Shown: in pieces, positions 32,646-45,756 of the stretch
Position numbering within the stretch: the stretch's first letter is position 1
Layout of the letters: the number at the start of each line of letters is the position of its first letter
DNA from: Bacillota bacterium
Lineage (GTDB): Bacteria > Bacillota > Clostridia > Saccharofermentanales > UBA5734
Assembly (NCBI GenBank): GCA_029548445.1
Contig: JAKPNJ010000250.1
Coordinates: forward strand, 1 to 47,332
Reading direction: 5' to 3'
Length of the DNA stretch: 47,332 nt
Translations under genes and position numbers: made by a program
The notes under the pieces: generated by a model
What the model saw: the letters and a program-made list of their open reading frames with translations, nothing else
Database searches by the model: none
What the model was told of the DNA's origin: nothing

Positions 32646-33743
32646 CTAGCGGACCGTCACCAGCTCGTACGCCTGGGATCCCAGCCCGACCTTCTCCAGC
32701 TCATCCAGCTGGCCGAAGGGATCCTTGCCATGGATCTGCCGGAACAGGTGGCCCTCCCCGGACAGGGCGAGCCCCTTTGGCAGGCCCACGGGGATCAGGT
32801 CCTCCGTCCGGATCGCGTCCAGGGAGGCCCGCTCGATGGCAACCAGGTCCTCGCCGGCCAGGATCCCGATGTCGGGCACCAGGGACGGGGTGGTCAGGCC
32901 CCAGCAGTCGCAGAGGGCCGTGATGGAAACCAGCATGTTGATGTAGTACACGCTTCCGGGGGAGAAGGTGTCCAGGACGGCCTTCGTACAGAGGGCCATG
33001 CCGGTCTGGAAATCGCCGTAATCATGGGCATCCAGGGAAATGGAGCCGGTGGGGCAGACCTTGACGCAGTGCTGGCAGAGGGTGCAATGGTGGTAGAACA
33101 CCCTGTACTCCCCGGTGTTGCCGGGGCCCGTGAAACTGTTGGCGTTGTGGTTGCAGGACTGGATGCACTTGCCGCAGTGGGTGCACGTCGCGGCGTCCCA
33201 GGCGAGGCCGCCCTCGAGGCCGTGGATTTCCCGCCGGGTCCGGTCGGTGACGCAGCCCATGGCGATGTTCTTGCAGGCGCCGCCGTATCCGCAGGCCCCG
33301 TGGCCCTTCACATGGGAGAAGTCGATCATCATGTCGGCGTCGTGGATGAGGCCCGCCACGTCCACATGCCGGAAGGTCCGGAAGGAGACGGGTTTCGTAT
33401 AATAGTATTTTCCGAGATGGCCACAGGCTTCCAGGATGGGACAACCCAGGTTGGACTCGGTGTATCCCCAGTGCTCCGGGTGGCGGCCGTGGACGTAGTG
33501 GTCCACGATAAAGCAGTCGGCGCCATGCTCCTGGAGAAACGACACCAGTTTCCGGACGAAGACCGGGGGGATGGTGGAGTAGGAGACCCCGGACCCCACA
33601 TGCATCTTGATGGCCACGGTCTTCTTCGCGACGTTCTCGGCCAACCCGCTCTTCTTCAGCAGCCGGGCGAACTTCTCGGGCAGGGTCTGGGTCGCTTCGT
33701 ACCGGGAAAAGGCCATGGGGGCGAACAGGATTTTGCTGGACAT
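32646..33743 (-). CDS. DUF362 domain protein with 4Fe-4S motifs
   Basis: A 365-residue cytoplasmic protein. The DUF362 core includes VAIKMHVGSG, DCFIVDHYVHGRHP, MMIDFSHVKGHGACGYGGAC and KNIAMGCVTDRTR. Two ferredoxin-like cysteine sets follow, CTHCGKCIQSC and CTLCQHCVKVCP, each fit for a [4Fe-4S] cluster (the second lacks no ligand if the following Cys is counted). The family is common in anaerobes; no reaction is established. It has a strong AAGGAGGTG ribosome site and an extended -10 upstream and is transcribed alone, divergent from the TetR regulator. Confidence 0.88.
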   Translation of the reverse strand: MSSKILFAPMAFSRYEATQTLPEKFARLLKKSGLAENVAKKTVAIKMHVGSGVSYSTIPPVFVRKLVSFLQEHGADCFIVDHYVHGRHPEHWGYTESNLGCPILEACGHLGKYYYTKPVSFRTFRHVDVAGLIHDADMMIDFSHVKGHGACGYGGACKNIAMGCVTDRTRREIHGLEGGLAWDAATCTHCGKCIQSCNHNANSFTGPGNTGEYRVFYHHCTLCQHCVKVCPTGSISLDAHDYGDFQTGMALCTKAVLDTFSPGSVYYINMLVSITALCDCWGLTTPSLVPDIGILAGEDLVAIERASLDAIRTEDLIPVGLPKGLALSGEGHLFRQIHGKDPFGQLDELEKVGLGSQAYELVTVR

Positions 33744-33853: not shown

Positions 33854-33883
33854 TGACCATACGGTCATATGACCGGACAGTCA
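33854..33883. promoter_or_regulatory. Two tandem TetR-type operators
   Basis: Two 14-nt sites of the form TGACY-N4-RGTCA lie 2 nt apart: TGACCATACGGTCA (33854-33867) and TGACCGGACAGTCA (33870-33883). The gap between them also makes a perfect CGGTCATATGACCG palindrome (33862-33875). They cover the expected transcription start and lie 19 nt before the TetR-type ATG, suggesting autoregulation. Confidence 0.72.
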
Positions 33884-33901
33884 TGTGGAAGGAGTCGGGC
33901 C

Positions 33902-34603
33902 ATGCCGAAGGAGACCTTCCTGAACCTGCTGCCGGACAAGCGGAGCCGGATCGAGGAAGCCGCCATCGACGAGTTCATCGCCTATCCCTACGATGCCGCG
34001 GGCATCAACCGGATCGTGGAGAAGGCCGGCATCCCCAAGGGCAGCTTCTACCAGTACTTCGAGGACAAGAAGGATCTCTATCTCCACCTCCTGGGCCGGA
34101 TCGTCGAGAGGAAGCTGGAGTACCTGGCCCCGGTCATGGAAAACCCCTTCCAGAAGGAATTCTTCTCCCTTCTCCGGGAGATCTACGGGGCGGGCCTCCG
34201 GTTCGCCCTGTCGAATCCCAGGCTGCAGCGGATCGGGACCCGGATCCTGGCCGACCGGAACAACCCCGTCCTCCTGGAGTTCCTGGCTGCGAGCCGGGGT
34301 AAGTCGGACGTCGTCTTCCACCGCCTGCTGGAGGCGGCCATCGCCCGGGGGGAGATCCGGCGGGATATCGACATCCCCATGTCCGCCCACCTGATCTCGG
34401 AACTGAGCCAGTCCGTGGCCGACTATTACCTGGAACGCGAAGGGGCCCGGTATGACGAGTCGTACATGGAGTATGTGGATCGGATGATCGATTTCCTGCG
34501 GAACGGAATCGGCGTGCCGCCCGACCGGGGCGGCCAGGGGGACCCGGGGGAGAGGCATCAGAAGCCGGATCCCCCGACAGCGGAAGGGAAGGATGCCCGA
34601 TGA
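33902..34603 (+). CDS. TetR-family transcriptional regulator
   Basis: A 233-residue repressor-type protein. The N-terminal helix-turn-helix is in IEEAAIDEFIAYPYDAAGIN and IVEKAGIPKGSFYQYFEDKK; the rest is the helical ligand-binding and dimerisation domain. The start at 33902 has GGAAGGAG upstream; the in-frame codons before it cover the operator. The stop overlaps the ATPase gene (ATGA), so regulator and ABC exporter are one operon, probably derepressed by the exported compound. Confidence 0.92.
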   Translation: MPKETFLNLLPDKRSRIEEAAIDEFIAYPYDAAGINRIVEKAGIPKGSFYQYFEDKKDLYLHLLGRIVERKLEYLAPVMENPFQKEFFSLLREIYGAGLRFALSNPRLQRIGTRILADRNNPVLLEFLAASRGKSDVVFHRLLEAAIARGEIRRDIDIPMSAHLISELSQSVADYYLEREGARYDESYMEYVDRMIDFLRNGIGVPPDRGGQGDPGERHQKPDPPTAEGKDAR

Positions 34604-35457
34604 TCGATGTAACCGGCCTGTTCTACTCGTATACCCATGACGACCGCTATGCCATCCGGGAGGTGGGATTCCAGGTCGACAAGGGAGAGGTCTTCGCCCT
34701 CCTGGGACCCTCCGGGGCGGGAAAGTCGACGACCCAGGGGGTCCTGACCGGGCTCCTGCCGCTGCAGAAGGGAACCGGCCAGGTGGCGGGCTTCCGGCTG
34801 GGCCACATGAACCGGGACCTCTTCAACCGGATCGGCGTCTCCTTCGAGCAGTCCAATGTCTACGGCAAGCTGACCGCACGGGAGAACCTGGCGTTCTATC
34901 GCCGGCTGTTCGACGTCCCCACCCGGGATCCCATGGAGCTGCTGAAACTGGCCGGCCTGGACCAGGTGGCGGACAAGCGGGCGGAAACCTATTCGAAGGG
35001 AATGAAACACCGGCTGACCTTCGTCCGAAGCATGATCAACAACCCTGACCTGTGGTTCCTGGACGAGCCGACCACGGGGCTGGATCCGGCCATCGCAAGC
35101 CAGATCAAGGAAATCATCCGCAGCCGGAAGGAGCAGGGGACCACCACCCTGCTGACGACCCACAACATGTTCCTGGCGGACCAGCTCAGCGACAAGGTCG
35201 GCTTTATCGTGGACGGGCGGCTGGTCCTGGTGGACACGCCCCGGAACCTCAAGCTGCAGTACGGGGAACGCCTGGTCCAGGTGGATTACAAGGAGGACGG
35301 GGGCCTCCGGTCCGAGCGGCTGTCCCTGGTCGACGAACGGGACCGGCAGCGCCTCGCGCTCCTGCTCTCGGAGCGGGAGATCGAGACGATGCACACGAAG
35401 GAGGCGACCTTGGAGGAAATTTTCATCAAGGTCACCGGCAGGGGGTTGGAAGGATGA
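34600..35457 (+). CDS. ABC-2 type transporter ATP-binding protein
   Basis: A 285-residue cytoplasmic ATPase. Walker A is GPSGAGKST, the Q-loop ISFEQ-type segment is GVSFEQSNVYGKLT, the signature is TYSKGMKHRLTFVRSM (SKGM replaces SGGQ, as in many exporters of this kind), Walker B is LWFLDEPTTGLDP and the H-loop is LLTTHNM. The C-terminal 60 residues form the extra domain seen in CcmA/NatA-like exporters. It overlaps the regulator before it and the permease after it by 4 nt each. Confidence 0.92.
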   Translation: MIDVTGLFYSYTHDDRYAIREVGFQVDKGEVFALLGPSGAGKSTTQGVLTGLLPLQKGTGQVAGFRLGHMNRDLFNRIGVSFEQSNVYGKLTARENLAFYRRLFDVPTRDPMELLKLAGLDQVADKRAETYSKGMKHRLTFVRSMINNPDLWFLDEPTTGLDPAIASQIKEIIRSRKEQGTTTLLTTHNMFLADQLSDKVGFIVDGRLVLVDTPRNLKLQYGERLVQVDYKEDGGLRSERLSLVDERDRQRLALLLSEREIETMHTKEATLEEIFIKVTGRGLEG

Positions 35458-36500
35458 GATTCCTGGCATCGTTCCAAAAGGACCTGGCCCTGGCCTTCCG
35501 CAGCCTGTACGCCTATATCGAGATCCTCATGGCCGTCCTCATCGTCATCGTCCTGGTCTTCATCGTGCCCGAGGACGCGCCGCGGCAGACGCCGGTTTTC
35601 GTTCACCTGGGCGTGGAGGGAGCCCTCCGGGAGAAGCTCCTGGAAGTCCTGGAGGAGGAATCGGCAGCCGGCGCGACGACACTGACCCTCTCGGATCGGC
35701 CGGAGGATGTCCGGGCCGGGCTGGAGGCCGACCGGTCCGCCGTGGGCCTGCTGGTCTCCCTGGAGGACGGGAAGGTCCGCTATGAGTTTGTCCTGCAGGG
35801 GTACGAGAGCGACCAGGTCCGGAACACCCTCCAGACCGGGTTCCTGTCGGAAATGGTCCGGTCGGTGCCGGGCTTCGTGGACGAAACCCGGGTCACCGTC
35901 CTGGACAGGATCGTCGAAAAACTCCCCACCCGGCTGGACCTGCTGCCCATCCTCCTGGTCATGAACTCGGCCTTCGTGGGCCTCTTCATCATTTCGGCCT
36001 ACATCTTCATGGACAAGGAGGAGGGCTCCATCAAGGCCTTCGCGGTGACCCCCGCCCGGATTTGGGAGTACCTGCTGAGCAAGGTCGCCATGATGCTGGG
36101 CATGGGCCTCGTAACGGGCCTTTTCACGGTGCTCGCCGTTACGGGGTTTCGGGTCCATATCCTGCTGTTCCTGCCGCTCCTGGTCGCCTGCAATCTCTTC
36201 GGGTCGGCCCTGGGCCTGCTGATCGCAAGCTTCTTCGACACCATGACCAAGTCCCTGGGCGCCCTGTATGTCGCCATCATCGCTCTTGGCCTGACAGCTG
36301 TTTCCTACTTCATGCCGTCGTTCTCCCCTTTCTGGATCACGCTGCTGCCCACCTACCCCATGCTGTTCGCCATGCGGGAAACCCTGCTGGCCAAGCCGGA
36401 TTCGGCCTACGTCCTGGCCTGGTCCGGGGTGTTCCTCGTCCTGTCCGTGGGGCTTTTCCTGCTGTCCGACCTGCGCTACAGGCGGACCCTGACGGTATAG
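35454..36500 (+). CDS. ABC-2 type transporter permease, first subunit
   Basis: A 348-residue membrane protein: one N-terminal helix (about 22-38), an outer domain of about 140 residues, then five or six helices from about residue 165 on (NSAFVGLFIISAYIFMDKEE, GSIKAFAVTPARIWEYLLSK). This is the ABC2_membrane_3 layout. The ATG at 35454 overlaps the ATPase stop. It pairs with the next permease as a heterodimer; the substrate is unknown, with drugs, peptides or lipids being usual for the family. Confidence 0.88.
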   Translation: MRFLASFQKDLALAFRSLYAYIEILMAVLIVIVLVFIVPEDAPRQTPVFVHLGVEGALREKLLEVLEEESAAGATTLTLSDRPEDVRAGLEADRSAVGLLVSLEDGKVRYEFVLQGYESDQVRNTLQTGFLSEMVRSVPGFVDETRVTVLDRIVEKLPTRLDLLPILLVMNSAFVGLFIISAYIFMDKEEGSIKAFAVTPARIWEYLLSKVAMMLGMGLVTGLFTVLAVTGFRVHILLFLPLLVACNLFGSALGLLIASFFDTMTKSLGALYVAIIALGLTAVSYFMPSFSPFWITLLPTYPMLFAMRETLLAKPDSAYVLAWSGVFLVLSVGLFLLSDLRYRRTLTV

Positions 36501-36513
36501 GGGGGGCGCAGCC

Positions 36514-37521
36514 ATGAACATGCTGAGGCGGATCCTGTCCATCGCACTCCGGGACCTGAAGAGCGGCATCCGGGATTTCATGGTCCTGTTCATCCTGGTC
36601 ATGCCGATCCTGCTGGCCGTCCTGCTCAAGTCCTTTGTCCCGTCGGTGGGGGCGGCCGTCCTCCACGCAGTGGTCCCGGAGGGTACCGATCCGGCCTTCG
36701 TGGACATGCTCGAGCGGCACGGCCGGGTCGAGACCGTGGCTGGCCGGGACGCCCTGGTCCGCCGGGTGGCAGCCAAGGACGACGTGGTCGGATTCGTGGA
36801 ATCCGCCGGGGAAACCGAGATCCTGGTCGGCGGGAACGAGGCCCAGGGGGTCCCGGAGCTGGCCGAGTCGGTGGCGGTGCTGTGGCGGAACCGGGACCTG
36901 GATCTGCCGGTGACCGTTGCGGTATCCGATGTGGGATGGCTCCTGTCGCCCCTCATGCGTTTCGGGGCGGACTTCCTCCTGGTCTTCATCTCGGTGTTCG
37001 GCGGCATGGTCGTCATGCTGAACCTGGTGGAGGAAAAGCAATCCAACACTCTCTCCGCCGTCAACGTGACCCCGGTCCGGCGGTGGGAGTACATCGCGGG
37101 GAAAGGGCTCCTGGGCTTCGTCCTGCCCATGGTCAATGCCTTCGCCATCCTGCTGGTCCTGGGGTTCACAGGCGTCGATTTCCTGATGGTGTCACTGGTG
37201 ATCCTGTCCATCGCCCTCATCGGCCTGATCGTCGGCTTCGCCATCGGCATCCACAGCGACAACCAGATGACCGCCGTCGCCTCCATGAAAATGATGTTCC
37301 TGCCGATCTTTGGCTCCATCCTGGGCGGGATCTTCCTTGCGGAGAAGTGGCACCCCCTGCTGTACTGGTCCCCGTTCTACTGGGCGTTCCGGTCCATGGA
37401 CGCCATCGTCCTGGACCAGGCGGCGTGGTCCGATATCCTTGTGAACAGCGGGATCATCCTGCTCCTGACCGCTGTCGTGTTCCTGTCGATGTGGAAGCGG
37501 ATCCGCAGGGGATTCGACTGA
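36514..37521 (+). CDS. ABC-2 type transporter permease, second subunit
   Basis: A 335-residue membrane protein of the same layout as its neighbour: helix at about 22-40, an outer domain of about 120 residues, then FLLVFISVFGGMVVMLNLVE, EKQSNTLSAVNVTPVRRWEY and four further helices. It starts 13 nt after the first permease, with GGGGGGCG as ribosome site. The two permeases differ in the outer domain, which suggests a heterodimer rather than recent duplication. Confidence 0.88.
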   Translation: MNMLRRILSIALRDLKSGIRDFMVLFILVMPILLAVLLKSFVPSVGAAVLHAVVPEGTDPAFVDMLERHGRVETVAGRDALVRRVAAKDDVVGFVESAGETEILVGGNEAQGVPELAESVAVLWRNRDLDLPVTVAVSDVGWLLSPLMRFGADFLLVFISVFGGMVVMLNLVEEKQSNTLSAVNVTPVRRWEYIAGKGLLGFVLPMVNAFAILLVLGFTGVDFLMVSLVILSIALIGLIVGFAIGIHSDNQMTAVASMKMMFLPIFGSILGGIFLAEKWHPLLYWSPFYWAFRSMDAIVLDQAAWSDILVNSGIILLLTAVVFLSMWKRIRRGFD

Positions 37522-37632
37522 CACGGGCCTGGCGGATGGCGACGGTTCACGTCGCGAAGAAGGTCCCCCAGTGGGACGCAGACGGGCGGACACCCGAAGA
37601 GGATCCGCCGAAGAAAGGAAAGGAGCCGCATC

Positions 37633-37836
37633 ATGGGGTGGCCGCTGCTGGGGCTCGTGCTGATCGCCTACGCCGCTTTCGTCGTTTATCTCAACGTGAA
37701 AAAGCCGGAGAAGATCTGGGACATGGCCAAGATCCGCATGTTCCGCAAGGTCCTGGGGGAAAAGGGGACGGTCATTATGTTCTATGTCTTCGCCGCCATC
37801 GCCCTGGGATTCGGCGTCTGGCTCCTGACCCTCTGA
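37633..37836 (+). CDS. Small two-helix membrane protein
   Basis: A 67-residue protein preceded by a clear GGAAAGGAG ribosome site. It has two hydrophobic helices (about 3-20 and 45-66) joined by a basic loop KKPEKIWDMAKIRMFRKVLG. I do not recognise a function. It lies 111 nt after the ABC permease on the same strand and may be the last gene of that operon, or an independent small gene. The window of DNA between them shows nothing else. Confidence 0.65.
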   Translation: MGWPLLGLVLIAYAAFVVYLNVKKPEKIWDMAKIRMFRKVLGEKGTVIMFYVFAAIALGFGVWLLTL

Positions 37837-37870
37837 GTTCCTGCCGGGAACTGGATCTCCTGGCATGAAA

Positions 37871-37904
37871 AACCGGAAGGCCTGCCGCGACAGGTCTTCC
37901 GGTT
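37871..37904 (-). terminator. Intrinsic terminator of the heliorhodopsin gene
   Basis: A 14-bp stem (AACCGGAAGGCCTG with CAGGTCTTCCGGTT, one G-U pair) closes a 6-nt loop. On the minus strand it is followed by five T residues, 35 nt after the heliorhodopsin stop. It may also slow transcription coming from the plus-strand small gene. Confidence 0.85.
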
Positions 37905-37938
37905 CGTGCCCTTTCGGGGACTGGAGGGTGCCGGACGG

Positions 37939-38724
37939 TTACTGGGGCTGCATGACGCCGGCGAATACGAGCCAGGCCAGGACCGACTTGGCCACCAGGC
38001 TCAGGACGATGTAGGCCCGCTCGCCATACAGGTAGTTGGACCAGCGGCCCACCTTTTTGTACTGCAGGAACATGTTCACGGGGAACAGGTTGAAGAAGAA
38101 GAAGTACGAGAAGGTAATGGCAAAGACGAACCATGGGATTTCGCCCAGGTCGGAGTTGCCGAAGGCGTTCAGGGCCACCACGATCCAGGGACCGAGGCCG
38201 GCGATGCTGCCGAAGACGAAGGAGGACCAGCTGGTCTTCGCCGCCCCCTGGTTGACCTTTTCCATGGCGTACCCGAAGAGGTTCATGGACGCGTTCAGCA
38301 GGAAGATCGCGATCAGCGTATCCACGGCGAAGACGCCGAAGAGGTTCGCGATCAGGACGATCATCACGGAGGAGCTGAGGGCATACTCATACCAGCGGAA
38401 CGGGTTCATGCCCCGGAGAATGTTTTCGTTGTAGACCCGGTTGGTGCCGGGGGCCGCAATGACGAAGTGGGCCAGGGCCGAAAGGAAGAGGAAGCTGGAG
38501 ACCAGGATGCCGAAGGGCAGGGTGCCGGCCTCCTTCGGCTCGGTGACGAGCCGCATGAGATTCGTATCAAAGGTCAGGAAGTAGGTGCGGAGCGGGGTCC
38601 GGAAATCCTTGATCTTGTCGACGGTCAGGCTGAAAACGAGCATCAGGGTTCCCTGGATCAGGTGGAGGGCGCCCATCAGCCAATTGAAACGCCGGAGGGA
38701 AGGAAGGGTGATGTCCTTGCGCAT
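37939..38724 (-). CDS. Heliorhodopsin
   Basis: A 261-residue seven-helix retinal protein. Family marks: LRRFNWLMGALHLIQGTLML at the N-terminus (H21), LSALAHF (H86), PFRWYEYALSSSVMIVLIAN in helix 3 with the expected counter-ion E113, GPWIVVALN, and YGERAYIVLSLVAKSVLAW in helix 7 with K246 as the retinal Schiff-base lysine. The order and spacing match heliorhodopsins and not type-1 pumps, which lack the helix-3 RWxEY and the N-terminal RRFN. The family has its N-terminus inside, opposite to other rhodopsins. Function is unsettled: light sensing or modulation of a partner enzyme has been suggested. The start has GAGGAGGAAA upstream. An AraC gene precedes it by 101 nt on the same strand. No retinal or carotenoid gene is visible here. 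Confidence 0.95.
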   Translation of the reverse strand: MRKDITLPSLRRFNWLMGALHLIQGTLMLVFSLTVDKIKDFRTPLRTYFLTFDTNLMRLVTEPKEAGTLPFGILVSSFLFLSALAHFVIAAPGTNRVYNENILRGMNPFRWYEYALSSSVMIVLIANLFGVFAVDTLIAIFLLNASMNLFGYAMEKVNQGAAKTSWSSFVFGSIAGLGPWIVVALNAFGNSDLGEIPWFVFAITFSYFFFFNLFPVNMFLQYKKVGRWSNYLYGERAYIVLSLVAKSVLAWLVFAGVMQPQ

Positions 38725-38825
38725 GGCGATTTCCTCCTCATGATTTCGTTCGAGCTCGGGGTCTTGATCCTATCCTACTCCCGAAACGCAAGTGGAATGG
38801 GAACCCGTGTGACCAATTGGAACGA

Positions 38826-39683
38826 TCATCCGTAGAGGCGGCGGCGGAACGGGAGGGGGGCGATCCCCGCGTACTGCCGGAACTGGTGCGTAAAGGTCGC
38901 CGTATCGGGGTATCCCAGGCTCAGGGCCACGGACTCCACGCTGTGGCCGGGATCGGCCAGCAGGACCCGGGCCCGGGACATCCGGCGCAGGATCATGTAA
39001 CGGTGGGGCGGGACGCCGGCCTGGGCCCGGAATCGCTTCCGGTAGGTCTCGACACCGAGCCCGGCCTCGTCCGCCGCCTCTTCCAGGGAGACCCGACCGT
39101 CCGGTCGAAGGGAAAGAAGCCGGTCCAGGCGCTCCGGCAACCGGTCCGGGGCGGCGGCCCGGCGGTCCGCGTCCAGCTGCAGGGCGAGACACACCAGGGA
39201 CACTGCGTCGGCCAGGCAGGAAGCAGAGGGGGTCTCCCGCGCACCCAGGCGGCCGTGGAGGGCGACAAAGCGCTGGACCAGGCCGGGATCCAGGCCCGGC
39301 GCCAGGACCGGTTCCCCGATTCCCGGAATCCCGGCGGCCAGGAGGCTTTCGTAGATCGGCCGGCCAAGGCAGACATAGCATTCGAGCCAGCCGGAATCCG
39401 GGTCCACCGGAGTTCGGTGCCGGATTCCCGGTCGACGCTGGATGAAGCAGCCAGGCGCCAGGGGAACGGAACACCCGTCCGGCCCGATGTAGCGGCCGGT
39501 TCCGCGAAGCAGCAGCAGGGCGCCATAGTAGGTGAAGGTGAGGACCCGGTCCGGGTCCGGGGGGCTCTCGGGGTAGGAAAGGAATCCGACGGACAGGATG
39601 GTTCGATCCTGGTCCGTGCCGAACTGGCGATGGACCCCGTTCGTCCGTCGCAGGGCTTCCGGGAGAAGGGAAACCACATCCAT
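38826..39683 (-). CDS. AraC-family transcriptional regulator
   Basis: A 285-residue regulator. Residues about 1-160 form a cupin-like sensor (LTFTYYGALLLLRGTGRYIG, PLAPGCFIQRRPGIRHRTPV), and residues about 185-285 the two helix-turn-helix units (LEEAADEAGLGVETYRKRFR; VESVALSLGYPDTATFTHQF). The ATG at 39683 has GGAGGT upstream. It is divergent from a UroD-like gene, its most likely target, and 101 nt upstream of the heliorhodopsin gene on the same strand, with which it could be cotranscribed. The sensor domain suggests a sugar-like ligand. Confidence 0.9.
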   Translation of the reverse strand: MDVVSLLPEALRRTNGVHRQFGTDQDRTILSVGFLSYPESPPDPDRVLTFTYYGALLLLRGTGRYIGPDGCSVPLAPGCFIQRRPGIRHRTPVDPDSGWLECYVCLGRPIYESLLAAGIPGIGEPVLAPGLDPGLVQRFVALHGRLGARETPSASCLADAVSLVCLALQLDADRRAAAPDRLPERLDRLLSLRPDGRVSLEEAADEAGLGVETYRKRFRAQAGVPPHRYMILRRMSRARVLLADPGHSVESVALSLGYPDTATFTHQFRQYAGIAPLPFRRRLYG

Positions 39684-39840: not shown

Positions 39841-40908
39841 ATGACAAATCGCGAGAATGTCCTGTCCCTCTTCCGGCGAACCGGGGTCGAGCGGGCACCG
39901 GTGGATTTCCAGCTCTGTCCCCACCTGGAATCCGTTTACAGGGAGAGGACCGGCAGCGCCATCCCGTATTGGGAATATTTCGATTTTCCCATGCGTTTCC
40001 TTCCCGGCCTCCCTTGCAGCCGCGCCGACGATGCGGCCTTCGCCGCCTGGTATCCGGAACCCCTGCGGCCGGGCACCGGCTTCGACCTGTTCGGCGTGGC
40101 CCACGAGCCCGGCAGCGCGGCCGCCATGCACATGACCCGCATGCGCCATCCCCTGGCCGGCGTGGACAGCCTGGACCGGATGCGGGAGTTTCCGTTCCCG
40201 TCCTTCGACTTTGGGGGCATCCCGGACCTCCGCCTGGCGGCCGACGCCCTCCATGCCGCAGGCTGCGCCTCCATGTTCGGCCTGACCTGTACCATTTGGG
40301 AGACCGCCTGGTATCTGCGCAGCATGGAAGACCTGATGGTGGACATGATCCAGGAGGATCCCAAGGCCGAGTTCCTGCTGGACCGGGTGACGGACCTGGC
40401 CTGCCTCCGGGCGGACGCCGCCGCGGAAGCCGGGGCCGACCTGCTGTTCCTGGGCGACGATGTGGGCATGCAGCGCACCCTCCTGATGAGCCGGGAACTC
40501 TATCGAACCTGGCTCCTGCCCCGGCTCACCCGGGTCATCGCGGCGGCCCGGGCGAAGAAGCCCGACATCCTGGTCATGTACCATTCCTGCGGCTTTGTCG
40601 AACCCCTCGTCGGGGACTTCCTCGAAGCCGGGATCGACATCCTGGACCCGGTCCAGCCGGAATGCATGGACGTGGCGGCCCTCCATGCGGCGTATGGCGA
40701 CCGGTTGTCCTTCCACGGGACCCTTGGCACCCAGACCACCATGCCCTTCGGCACCCCCGACGACGTCCGGCGGACCGTCCGGCGCAGCCTGGACTTGGCC
40801 GGGGCGGCGGGCGGGATGTTCTGCGCCCCCACCCACATGCTGGAACCGGAAGTACCCTGGGAAAACGTCCTGGCCTATGTGGAGGCCTGCCGGGACTGGC
40901 GTCCCTGA
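39841..40908 (+). CDS. Uroporphyrinogen decarboxylase-like protein with HxC motif
   Basis: A 355-residue UroD-fold protein. It has MTNRENVLSLFRR at the start, LLFLGDDVGMQRTLLMSREL, YHSCGFVEPLVGDFLEAGID, and LDPVQPECMD near the end. YHSCG corresponds to the HxC zinc site of MtaA/CmuA corrinoid methyltransferases, with C in PECMD as a possible third ligand, so methyl transfer is more plausible than uroporphyrinogen decarboxylation. The ATG at 39841 is chosen for GGAAGGAGAG upstream; the GTG at 39817 is less likely. It is divergent from an AraC regulator. No corrinoid protein gene is in the window. Confidence 0.8.
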   Translation: MTNRENVLSLFRRTGVERAPVDFQLCPHLESVYRERTGSAIPYWEYFDFPMRFLPGLPCSRADDAAFAAWYPEPLRPGTGFDLFGVAHEPGSAAAMHMTRMRHPLAGVDSLDRMREFPFPSFDFGGIPDLRLAADALHAAGCASMFGLTCTIWETAWYLRSMEDLMVDMIQEDPKAEFLLDRVTDLACLRADAAAEAGADLLFLGDDVGMQRTLLMSRELYRTWLLPRLTRVIAAARAKKPDILVMYHSCGFVEPLVGDFLEAGIDILDPVQPECMDVAALHAAYGDRLSFHGTLGTQTTMPFGTPDDVRRTVRRSLDLAGAAGGMFCAPTHMLEPEVPWENVLAYVEACRDWRP

Positions 40909-40951
40909 ACCCGCCACCCGGCGAGCCCTTTCGCCGCATCCCGGACGGGCC

Positions 40952-40957
40952 TATAAT
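40952..40957 (+). promoter_or_regulatory. -10 box directly before a start codon
   Basis: TATAAT ends 6 nt before the ATG at 40964, with TTTCGC 17 nt upstream as a weak -35. Transcription would begin at or next to the ATG. Confidence 0.45.
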
Positions 40958-40963
40958 GGAGGC

Positions 40964-41551
40964 ATGGACGATCGCGACCGGTTCCTGCAGGCTTTCCGAT
41001 CCCTGGACCGGGCGGATTTCCTCGAAGGCCCCGTCAAGTCCATGGCCGACGAGGACCACCCCCTGCCCATCGGATACGGCCAGACCATCTCCCAGCCGAG
41101 CCTCGTGCTGCTCATGACCCGGCTCCTGGATCCGCGCCCCGACGACAAGGTCCTGGAGATCGGGACCGGGTCGGGATTCCAGGCCGCCCTCCTGGCGCAA
41201 TTGGCCGGCACGGTCCACACCATCGAGCGGATTCCGCAGCTGTCCGCCGCCGCGTCGGCCCGGCTGGAGCGGCTGGGCTGCCGGAACGTCGTCTGCCATG
41301 TGGGCGACGGCAGCGACGGCCTGCCGGGGGAGGCTCCCTTCGACCGGATCATGGTGACGGCGGCGGCGGCCCGGATGCCCGACGCGCTCCTGGACCAGCT
41401 GGCACCGGGGGGTCGGATGATCCTGCCGGTGGGACAGCGCTGGCTCCAGGACCTCCGGATCGTGGACAAGACCCCGGACGGCCGGGTGTACGAGCGAAAC
41501 TACGAGTCGGTGGTCTTCGTGGAATTTGTGGGACGATACGGGTTTGGATGA
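40964..41551 (+). CDS. Protein-L-isoaspartate O-methyltransferase-like
   Basis: A 195-residue SAM-dependent methyltransferase. LPIGYGQTISQPSLVLLMTR is the family signature; VLEIGTGSGFQAALLA is the SAM-binding motif I, and PFDRIMVTAAAARMPDALLD with LAPGGRMILPVG are motifs II-III. PCMT enzymes methylate damaged isoaspartyl residues in proteins, starting their repair. The protein matches the family over its whole length but is slightly short at the N-terminus. GGAGG is only 1 nt from the ATG and a TATAAT stands right before it, so translation may be leaderless. Confidence 0.85.
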   Translation: MDDRDRFLQAFRSLDRADFLEGPVKSMADEDHPLPIGYGQTISQPSLVLLMTRLLDPRPDDKVLEIGTGSGFQAALLAQLAGTVHTIERIPQLSAAASARLERLGCRNVVCHVGDGSDGLPGEAPFDRIMVTAAAARMPDALLDQLAPGGRMILPVGQRWLQDLRIVDKTPDGRVYERNYESVVFVEFVGRYGFG

Positions 41552-44658: not shown

Positions 44659-45756
44659 TTACAGGGCCTCCAGGGCGTCCAGGGCTACCAGGGTCCGGCG
44701 CCTGGCCGCCTGTTCGCTTCGGACGATGGCCAGCAGGCCGTCCGCCAGGGATCGGAACGAGGGCGGCGGGCAGGCGGCTTCCACCAGGCGGATCCAGTCC
44801 GGATCGAGGGCCGGCGCGCCCCGGTAGGCGCCGGCCACGGCTCCGGCGACACAGGCGGAACTGTCGTTGTCCCGGCCCAGGTTGACGGCGTACCGGATGG
44901 TGTGGCCGGGATCGCCTTCCGCCAGGACGAAACAGGCCAGGGCCAGGGCCAGGGTTTCGGCCCCGTCGGCGAAGAACTCCATCCGAATGGCCCCCAGCAG
45001 CTCGGTCCGGAAGGCGTCGTCGTACCGGCCGTGCCGGAGGGCAATCTCCACCGCGGTTTCCAGGGCCTGTTCGGATTTGCGGGCGATGCCGGCATACATC
45101 CCGCTGCCCCGCCACAGGGGTCCGTCCACCCGGGCCTTGTGGCGTGCCACAGCCTGCAGGGACGCCTCCACCACCTCCAGGGGCGAGAGTCCCGGGATCA
45201 TGGCGGCCGAGACCGCCGCCGCGGCCATGGCGGCCGCATGACGCGCGTACCCCTCGGTGGTGGCCAGGGCGTCCAGGGCGCCCCGGAAGGCCCGGTCCGG
45301 ATCGCAGGGCGCCACGGCCCCGAAGGGCGCGATGCCCATGATGGCGCCGTTGGTGGGCTGTCCGCCGAAGATCCGCTTCTCGTCCCGATACAGGTGTTTC
45401 AGGTAATATTCCTCCAGGAATCCCCGCTCCAGGTCGCTGTCGGCCCCGTGGTACCGCGCGGCGAACGTCCGGGCCAGGTCCCCGGTGGTGGGCATGCCGC
45501 CGCAGGCCAGCATGGCCTCGCAGAACAGCCGGGCCATCCGGGTGTCGTCCGTGAAGCACCCGGCCTCCAGCCCCCAGGGACCATGTTCCGACACGGCCGA
45601 GTGGCGGTATGGCAGCAGCCGGTCGACTTCGCCGTAGGCTTTCCGGATATCCTCCCCGTCCCAGAGTTCCACGGGTCCCCCCATGGCGTCGCCGATGGCG
45701 GACGCCACGAGGCACCCGAAGATCCGATCCGAAAGGGAAGGGGCGGCCGCGCCCAT
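44659..45756 (-). CDS. ADP-ribosylglycohydrolase family protein
   Basis: A 365-residue protein of the ADP-ribosylglycohydrolase (DraG/ARH-like) fold. Magnesium-binding motifs are present: IGDAMGGPVE at residues about 21-30, CFTDDTRMA (about 67-75) and NLGRDNDSSACVAGAVAGAY near the end. Members remove ADP-ribose from proteins or, in sugar loci, may cleave related N- or O-glycosidic bonds. The stop of the upstream alpha-mannosidase gene lies 10 nt before its ATG, so the two are cotranscribed; this context suggests a catabolic role rather than protein de-ADP-ribosylation. No ADP-ribosyltransferase is seen. Confidence 0.87.
   Translation of the reverse strand: MGAAAPSLSDRIFGCLVASAIGDAMGGPVELWDGEDIRKAYGEVDRLLPYRHSAVSEHGPWGLEAGCFTDDTRMARLFCEAMLACGGMPTTGDLARTFAARYHGADSDLERGFLEEYYLKHLYRDEKRIFGGQPTNGAIMGIAPFGAVAPCDPDRAFRGALDALATTEGYARHAAAMAAAAVSAAMIPGLSPLEVVEASLQAVARHKARVDGPLWRGSGMYAGIARKSEQALETAVEIALRHGRYDDAFRTELLGAIRMEFFADGAETLALALACFVLAEGDPGHTIRYAVNLGRDNDSSACVAGAVAGAYRGAPALDPDWIRLVEAACPPPSFRSLADGLLAIVRSEQAARRRTLVALDALEAL

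Follow-up and report, generated by a model that had tools for sequence, protein, structure and literature searches.

An intact heliorhodopsin in an apparently anaerobic clostridial host with no recognisable route to retinal

The window, as we call the whole 47,332-nucleotide stretch of DNA analysed here, encodes an intact heliorhodopsin (HeR) in a host that looks to be an anaerobic monoderm with no known route to retinal. The reading that we favour, with a probability of roughly 60%, is that the protein serves as a non-pumping photosensor or regulator that uses scavenged retinal, in a monoderm anaerobe of the Clostridia with no known retinal route of its own. The HeR family itself is already published, as are HeRs from strictly anaerobic Firmicutes (reported in 2021; PMC8612252) and rhodopsins in genomes with neither blh nor diox1, Firmicutes included (PMC7734400); a heliorhodopsin accompanied by missing retinal genes has also been described in Bathyarchaeota (PMC7110647). 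What is new here is the controlled absence of the searched carotenoid, retinal and oxygen-respiration genes from a genome in which the HeR gene is intact and constrained.

Identity and layout of the gene

An earlier note, made from the letters of this DNA, had called the open reading frame a heliorhodopsin, and that assignment is borne out by two family profiles and by alignment to the HeR of a Thermoplasmatales archaeon (TaHeR); to it we add that the gene lies on the minus strand. The Pfam Heliorhodopsin profile PF18761 is matched over its whole length (E = 3.8e-96; 321.6 bits against a cut-off of 26.7) and is the only family found in a Pfam search of the protein, while the NCBIfam equivalog NF038020 ('heliorhodopsin HeR') scores 305.9 bits against a cut-off of 100. 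All six solved-structure sequences that match the protein are heliorhodopsins. The segments RRFNWLMGALH, RWYEY and LVAKSVLAW, which the note had picked out, were each found where they had been placed.

The reading frame begins with ATG, has a third-position GC content (0.90) in line with the other genes, and sits intact within a 47-kb contig. The terminator that had been ascribed to it is a minus-strand hairpin at 37870-37905, ahead of a T run, with a folding energy of −28.7 kcal/mol (z = −4.0), which none of the shuffled sequences matched; a simple consensus scanner for terminators did not list it. The neighbouring TetR/ABC-2 cluster ends on the opposite strand ahead of this hairpin. Coordinates are collected in Table 1.

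Table 1. The heliorhodopsin gene, its signals and its closest neighbours in the window.
Feature	Position	Strand	Basis
Heliorhodopsin (HeR), 261 aa, complete	37939..38724	-	PF18761 and NF038020 profiles, alignment, model
Ribosome-binding site GAGGAGG-aaatcgcc, just 5' of the HeR ATG	38725..38739	-	Read from sequence
Intrinsic terminator hairpin and T run, 3' of HeR, in the gap to the convergent small-membrane-protein gene	37868..37905	-	Folding
AraC-family regulator, 5' of HeR, same strand, 101-bp gap	38826..39683	-	HTH_18, E 9e-18
67-aa membrane protein, no family, convergent with HeR; last gene of the TetR/ABC-2 cluster (33869-37836)	37633..37836	+	
TetR regulator, ABC ATPase and two ABC-2 permeases, convergent with HeR	33869..37521	+	

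Active-site residues, fold and predicted absorption

In an alignment of 86 homologues together with TaHeR, K246 falls at TaHeR Lys238, and E113, which sits in helix 3, falls at TaHeR Glu108 (6is6), the residue mutated in 7clj (E108D). We take Glu108 and Lys238 to be the published numbers of the counter-ion and the Schiff-base lysine, the TaHeR chain numbering being offset by 6, as confirmed by the E108D entry. The earlier note had assigned K246 and E113 to these same two functions and had proposed the alignment as the check on them; both positions match TaHeR. Seven residues (K246, S117, H86, R110, W166, W180 and F211) are invariant in the 86 aligned homologues and E113 is conserved in 97% of them, while the window HeR departs from the positions with at least 85% consensus at one site only, where S229 replaces Lys. 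The SxxxK motif of helix 7 is represented by S242-LVA-K246, and H21, H86 and S117 are present as well.

The AlphaFold model (pLDDT 91.2) contains seven helices and a long AB-loop beta hairpin with strands at residues 42–53 and 58–70. It superposes on TaHeR with a TM score of 0.89 and on 48C12 with 0.86, well above any type-1 rhodopsin: type-1 structures are about 10–16% identical to the protein with TM scores of about 0.6, and its Pfam search gave no match to the type-1 family (Bac_rhodopsin). A cytoplasmic N-terminus (inverted topology) would fit the charges of the short loops, whereas those of the long AB loop are mixed.

TaHeR (PDB 6is6, 7u55) has the same fold, counter-ion glutamate and Schiff-base lysine as the window HeR, along with H21, H86, S117 and the SxxxK motif, but is about 41–43% identical to it, comes from an archaeal host and lies on a distant branch of the tree. 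48C12 (PDB 6su3, 6uh3) aligns over the whole length with the same fold (TM 0.84–0.86) at about 42% identity, but its Gln148 and Gln213 are both replaced by Met in the window HeR, predicting a bluer maximum. When 48C12 numbers are converted using the offsets at the conserved Glu and Lys, residues M154, M218 and A245 of the window HeR stand at the positions of Gln148, Gln213 and Ala240. Mesotoga, Dehalogenimonas and Thermococcus are anaerobes. Purified HeRs of a random set that includes theirs have visible spectra at 530–539 nm, and in the group absorbing below 540 nm these three positions are Met, Met and Ala, the last being Ser in Thermococcus (PMC7807009). Since M154, M218 and A245 are the combination found in that group, we predict that the window HeR absorbs below about 545 nm. 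The MORN-HeRs of strictly anaerobic Syntrophomonadaceae (PMC8612252) resemble the window protein in being heliorhodopsins of anaerobic Firmicutes but differ in their N-terminal MORN repeats; the window HeR has none and starts at the family core, matching PF18761 alone.

Absence of genes for retinal synthesis and oxygen respiration

The source genome (3.03 Mb in 359 contigs, 97% complete, 3.2% contamination; the window is its contig C47) was searched by family for a supply of retinal and for the respiration of oxygen, and genome-wide absences are to be read as the outcome of these family searches. No match was found in it to the Brp/Blh dioxygenase (BCD; positive control Aquiluna, 2.5e-30; the search covered this genome, G001 and the named genomes), to phytoene synthase (PSY; 7 positive controls matched), to RPE65-type oxygenases (2 matched), to the haem-copper oxidase COX1 (8 matched) or to cytochrome bd subunit I (10 matched). 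RPE65 was absent from all 25 genomes tested. PSY, BCD/Blh, RPE65, COX1 and bd oxidase are also missing from three isolates, Clostridium frigoris, C. psychrophilum and C. lacusfryxellense. One such absence in an incomplete genome could be due to chance; that all five families should be missing together by chance, and again in the isolates, is unlikely.

A route to retinal is thus not recognisable in this genome. We know of no carotene cleavage that does without oxygen, and oxygen is apparently not respired by this host. The earlier note had seen no carotenoid-cleavage or retinal gene in the window, and the genome-wide search that it asked for extends this to PSY, BCD/blh and RPE65; the puzzle that it saw in oxygen-dependent retinal formation by an anaerobe stands too, with neither COX1 nor bd oxidase found genome-wide.

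PSY-type genes occur in four of the 11 HeR-bearing relatives of the order that were searched (G201, G202, G212 and G215) and are absent from the other seven. For the matches of G201 and G215, the top-scoring family is that of HpnD-like squalene enzymes. In G212, a member of the window's family, a phytoene-synthase-like gene adjoins a crtI-family desaturase (L126:7149-9613), so that carotenoid synthesis appears patchy in this family of anaerobes. Matches to BCD in Alkalibacterium were rejected as blh, being weak and falling, as judged by eye, in a ZIP-like protein and a YidC/OxaA-like ORF.

The host also looks monoderm, as is usual for HeR hosts though not a strict requirement, because Omp85/BamA gave no match in the source genome or in eight relatives (7 positive controls matched) and the nearest HeR relative is titled 'Clostridia bacterium'.

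Distribution, selection and mobility

HeR is carried by nine of the 23 genomes of the window's family, the source genome included, in several genera, and by 12 of the 188 genomes of the order at scores above the family cut-off. The nearest relative, from the metagenome-assembled genome (MAG) just mentioned, is 75% identical; it appears to be the same record as L114 (from G211:C59, in the window's family), which gives the same HeR match. The next nearest, at 61–64%, come from Alkalibacterium, Clostridium frigoris, C. psychrophilum, C. lacusfryxellense, Lactovum and an Oscillospiraceae MAG. The window HeR shares a clade with the Bacillota HeRs, those of Alkalibacterium, the Clostridium frigoris group and Lactovum and presumably TfHeR of Trichococcus flocculiformis; identity was measured to the Alkalibacterium and Clostridium HeRs (61–64%). 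TfHeR differs in lying in an operon with photolyase (PMC9769723), whereas none of the genes identified next to the window HeR is a photolyase.

The HeR gene is under purifying selection: dN/dS is 0.14 between the window and L114 (dS 1.25) and mostly 0.03–0.16 for other pairs, with values of 0.24–0.47 for two pairs from very GC-rich genomes. The window HeR groups with that of L114 (support 100/99), and the two nest in a Bacillota clade (94/92), while other members of the window's family form a second HeR group with family f4; the wide view of all 86 HeRs is a quick tree. Horizontal transfer into the window's family is suggested by the tree, but placing all sequences of the order in one clade is not rejected (p-AU 0.235). 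Bin contamination was dismissed as the source of the gene, whose GC content matches that of other genes and which relatives in the family and order also carry, and so was a phage or viral origin, no relative having been found in phages or IMG/VR.

A HeR 62.6% identical to that of the window sits beside an IS6 transposase on a 10.5-kb mobilizable plasmid of Lactococcus petauri (L127:5592-6368), so the gene can move among Bacillota. Two copies are decayed, and HeR is therefore dispensable in some lineages: in G048 an in-frame N-terminal part is missing (L115:7895-8518; third-position GC above that of its surroundings), and in Alkalibacterium putridalgicola the gene is split by an in-frame stop (L005:5980-6786). 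HeR appears duplicated in G201 and G205; the contigs carrying the copies are collinear, with 86–90% DNA identity, so the copies may come from two strains binned together and not be paralogues.

Gene neighbourhood

Across 21 Bacillota loci (the window and 20 others), HeR is the only gene common beyond one genus, and neither the link to the AraC gene nor the adjacency to the TetR/ABC-2 genes is kept in relatives. Since no neighbour recurs, the gene looks like a single unit with its partner encoded elsewhere. The sugar-degrading surroundings described in the earlier note are real, comprising an alpha-L-rhamnosidase, GH38 C-terminal domains, a beta-helix protein, a sugar-type ABC permease and a sensor kinase, with the sugar-degradation genes farther from HeR than the AraC and TetR/ABC-2 genes; as a clue to function they fail, because with no neighbour conserved the sugar, AraC and ABC-transporter genes say little about what HeR does. 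No link between HeR and the 67-aa membrane protein is evident. Recurring antisense ORFs and URO-D matches were rejected as partners, not being syntenic.

In relatives, the genes beside HeR include a nitroreductase at L114, a PAP2 phosphatase with a DUF1508 protein at L110, a GTP-type PEP carboxykinase with an SDR oxidoreductase at L109, and a trans-2-enoyl-CoA reductase at L113. The HeR gene of Clostridium frigoris is followed after 50 bp, on its own strand, by a gene of the Staygreen family, which in plants is chlorophyll dechelatase-like (L004:6001-7375); C. psychrophilum (L006) has no such gene at that position.

Possible roles and sources of the chromophore

The protein is a membrane protein of seven helices, its N-terminus probably cytoplasmic. 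We infer that it would bind retinal on K246 with E113 as the counter-ion and, pumping no ions, would serve as a slow photosensor or regulator whose conformational change would be passed to a partner protein. Because the host cannot make retinal by any known route, the chromophore would probably be retinal or a close retinoid scavenged from outside, with plant- or animal-derived organic matter and aerobic neighbours as candidate sources. Related HeRs pair with photolyase, glutamine synthetase or an ABC transporter in a light-dependent way (PMC9769723, PMC9529153, PMC11109279). Against a photosensor stand the lack of any partner gene kept beside HeR in relatives, the decayed copies in G048 and A. 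putridalgicola, and the label of the nearest relative, Go_SlDig, which perhaps denotes a slurry digester, a site that would be dark. A scavenged chromophore, if confirmed, would show that a cell's ability to sense light can rest on an environmental vitamin, while endogenous retinal would mean an unknown pathway; C. frigoris, C. psychrophilum and C. lacusfryxellense are cultured counterparts in which the source of retinal for the rhodopsins of anaerobes becomes testable.

It is possible, though unlikely, that the anaerobic lineage keeps HeR under selection through an unknown oxygen-independent route to retinal or as a retinal-free opsin, for example a sensor of another ligand. A HeR that is mainly apo-protein in the clostridial lineage, or holds a ligand other than retinal, would fit a genome with no known retinal supply that nevertheless keeps the gene under purifying selection, yet the retinal-binding lysine and counter-ion are retained across the clostridial clade, as would hardly be expected of a protein that never binds retinal, and we consider this improbable. 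Slightly less probable still is that the host makes its own retinal by an unknown pathway, oxygen-independent or micro-oxic perhaps, leaving HeR fully charged in vivo; the PSY-like and crtI-family pair in G212 speaks for it, as does Aurantimicrobium minutum, which makes retinal without blh or diox1 (PMC7734400). A. minutum, however, has carotenoid genes, whereas the source genome has not even PSY, as is the case for seven of the 11 HeR-bearing relatives searched, and two of the other four matches are the HpnD-like ones. The oxygen requirement of carotene cleavage, as generally understood, also weighs against it.

Two further readings concern the gene's history and its neighbours. That HeR is a recent acquisition, a relic with no current function or a contaminant of the assembled genome would accord with its patchy distribution in the order, its decayed copies, its presence on a mobilizable plasmid and the two HeR lineages within one family; we hold it to be very unlikely, given an intact gene of matching third-position GC, under purifying selection on a 47-kb contig, its occurrence in other genera of the same family and a test of two origins that was not significant. 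The least credible proposal, to our minds, is that HeR modulates the adjacent TetR/ABC-2 transporter as OcHeR does OmrDE (PMC11109279): adjacency and that precedent favour it, but the genes are convergent rather than co-transcribed, a strong terminator separates them and the pairing is absent in relatives.

Other observations

A PADLOC match to mad2 at 40595-41551 proved to be an ordinary PCMT methyltransferase, a protein-isoaspartate methyltransferase with an extra N-terminal stretch of about 120 aa (from a putative start codon); the mad2 match covers the methyltransferase part only. At 32646-33743 the window encodes a DUF362 protein whose ferredoxin-type 4Fe-4S domain accords with an anaerobic host, and at 44659-45756 an ADP-ribosylglycohydrolase family protein beside a protein with a GH38-type C-terminal domain. 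In G215, of the window's family, HeR is followed after 25 bp, in the same orientation, by the start of a Tocopherol_cycl-family protein (L106:735-2550); this protein possibly has an isoprenoid-binding lipocalin-like fold and could be a retinoid-handling partner.
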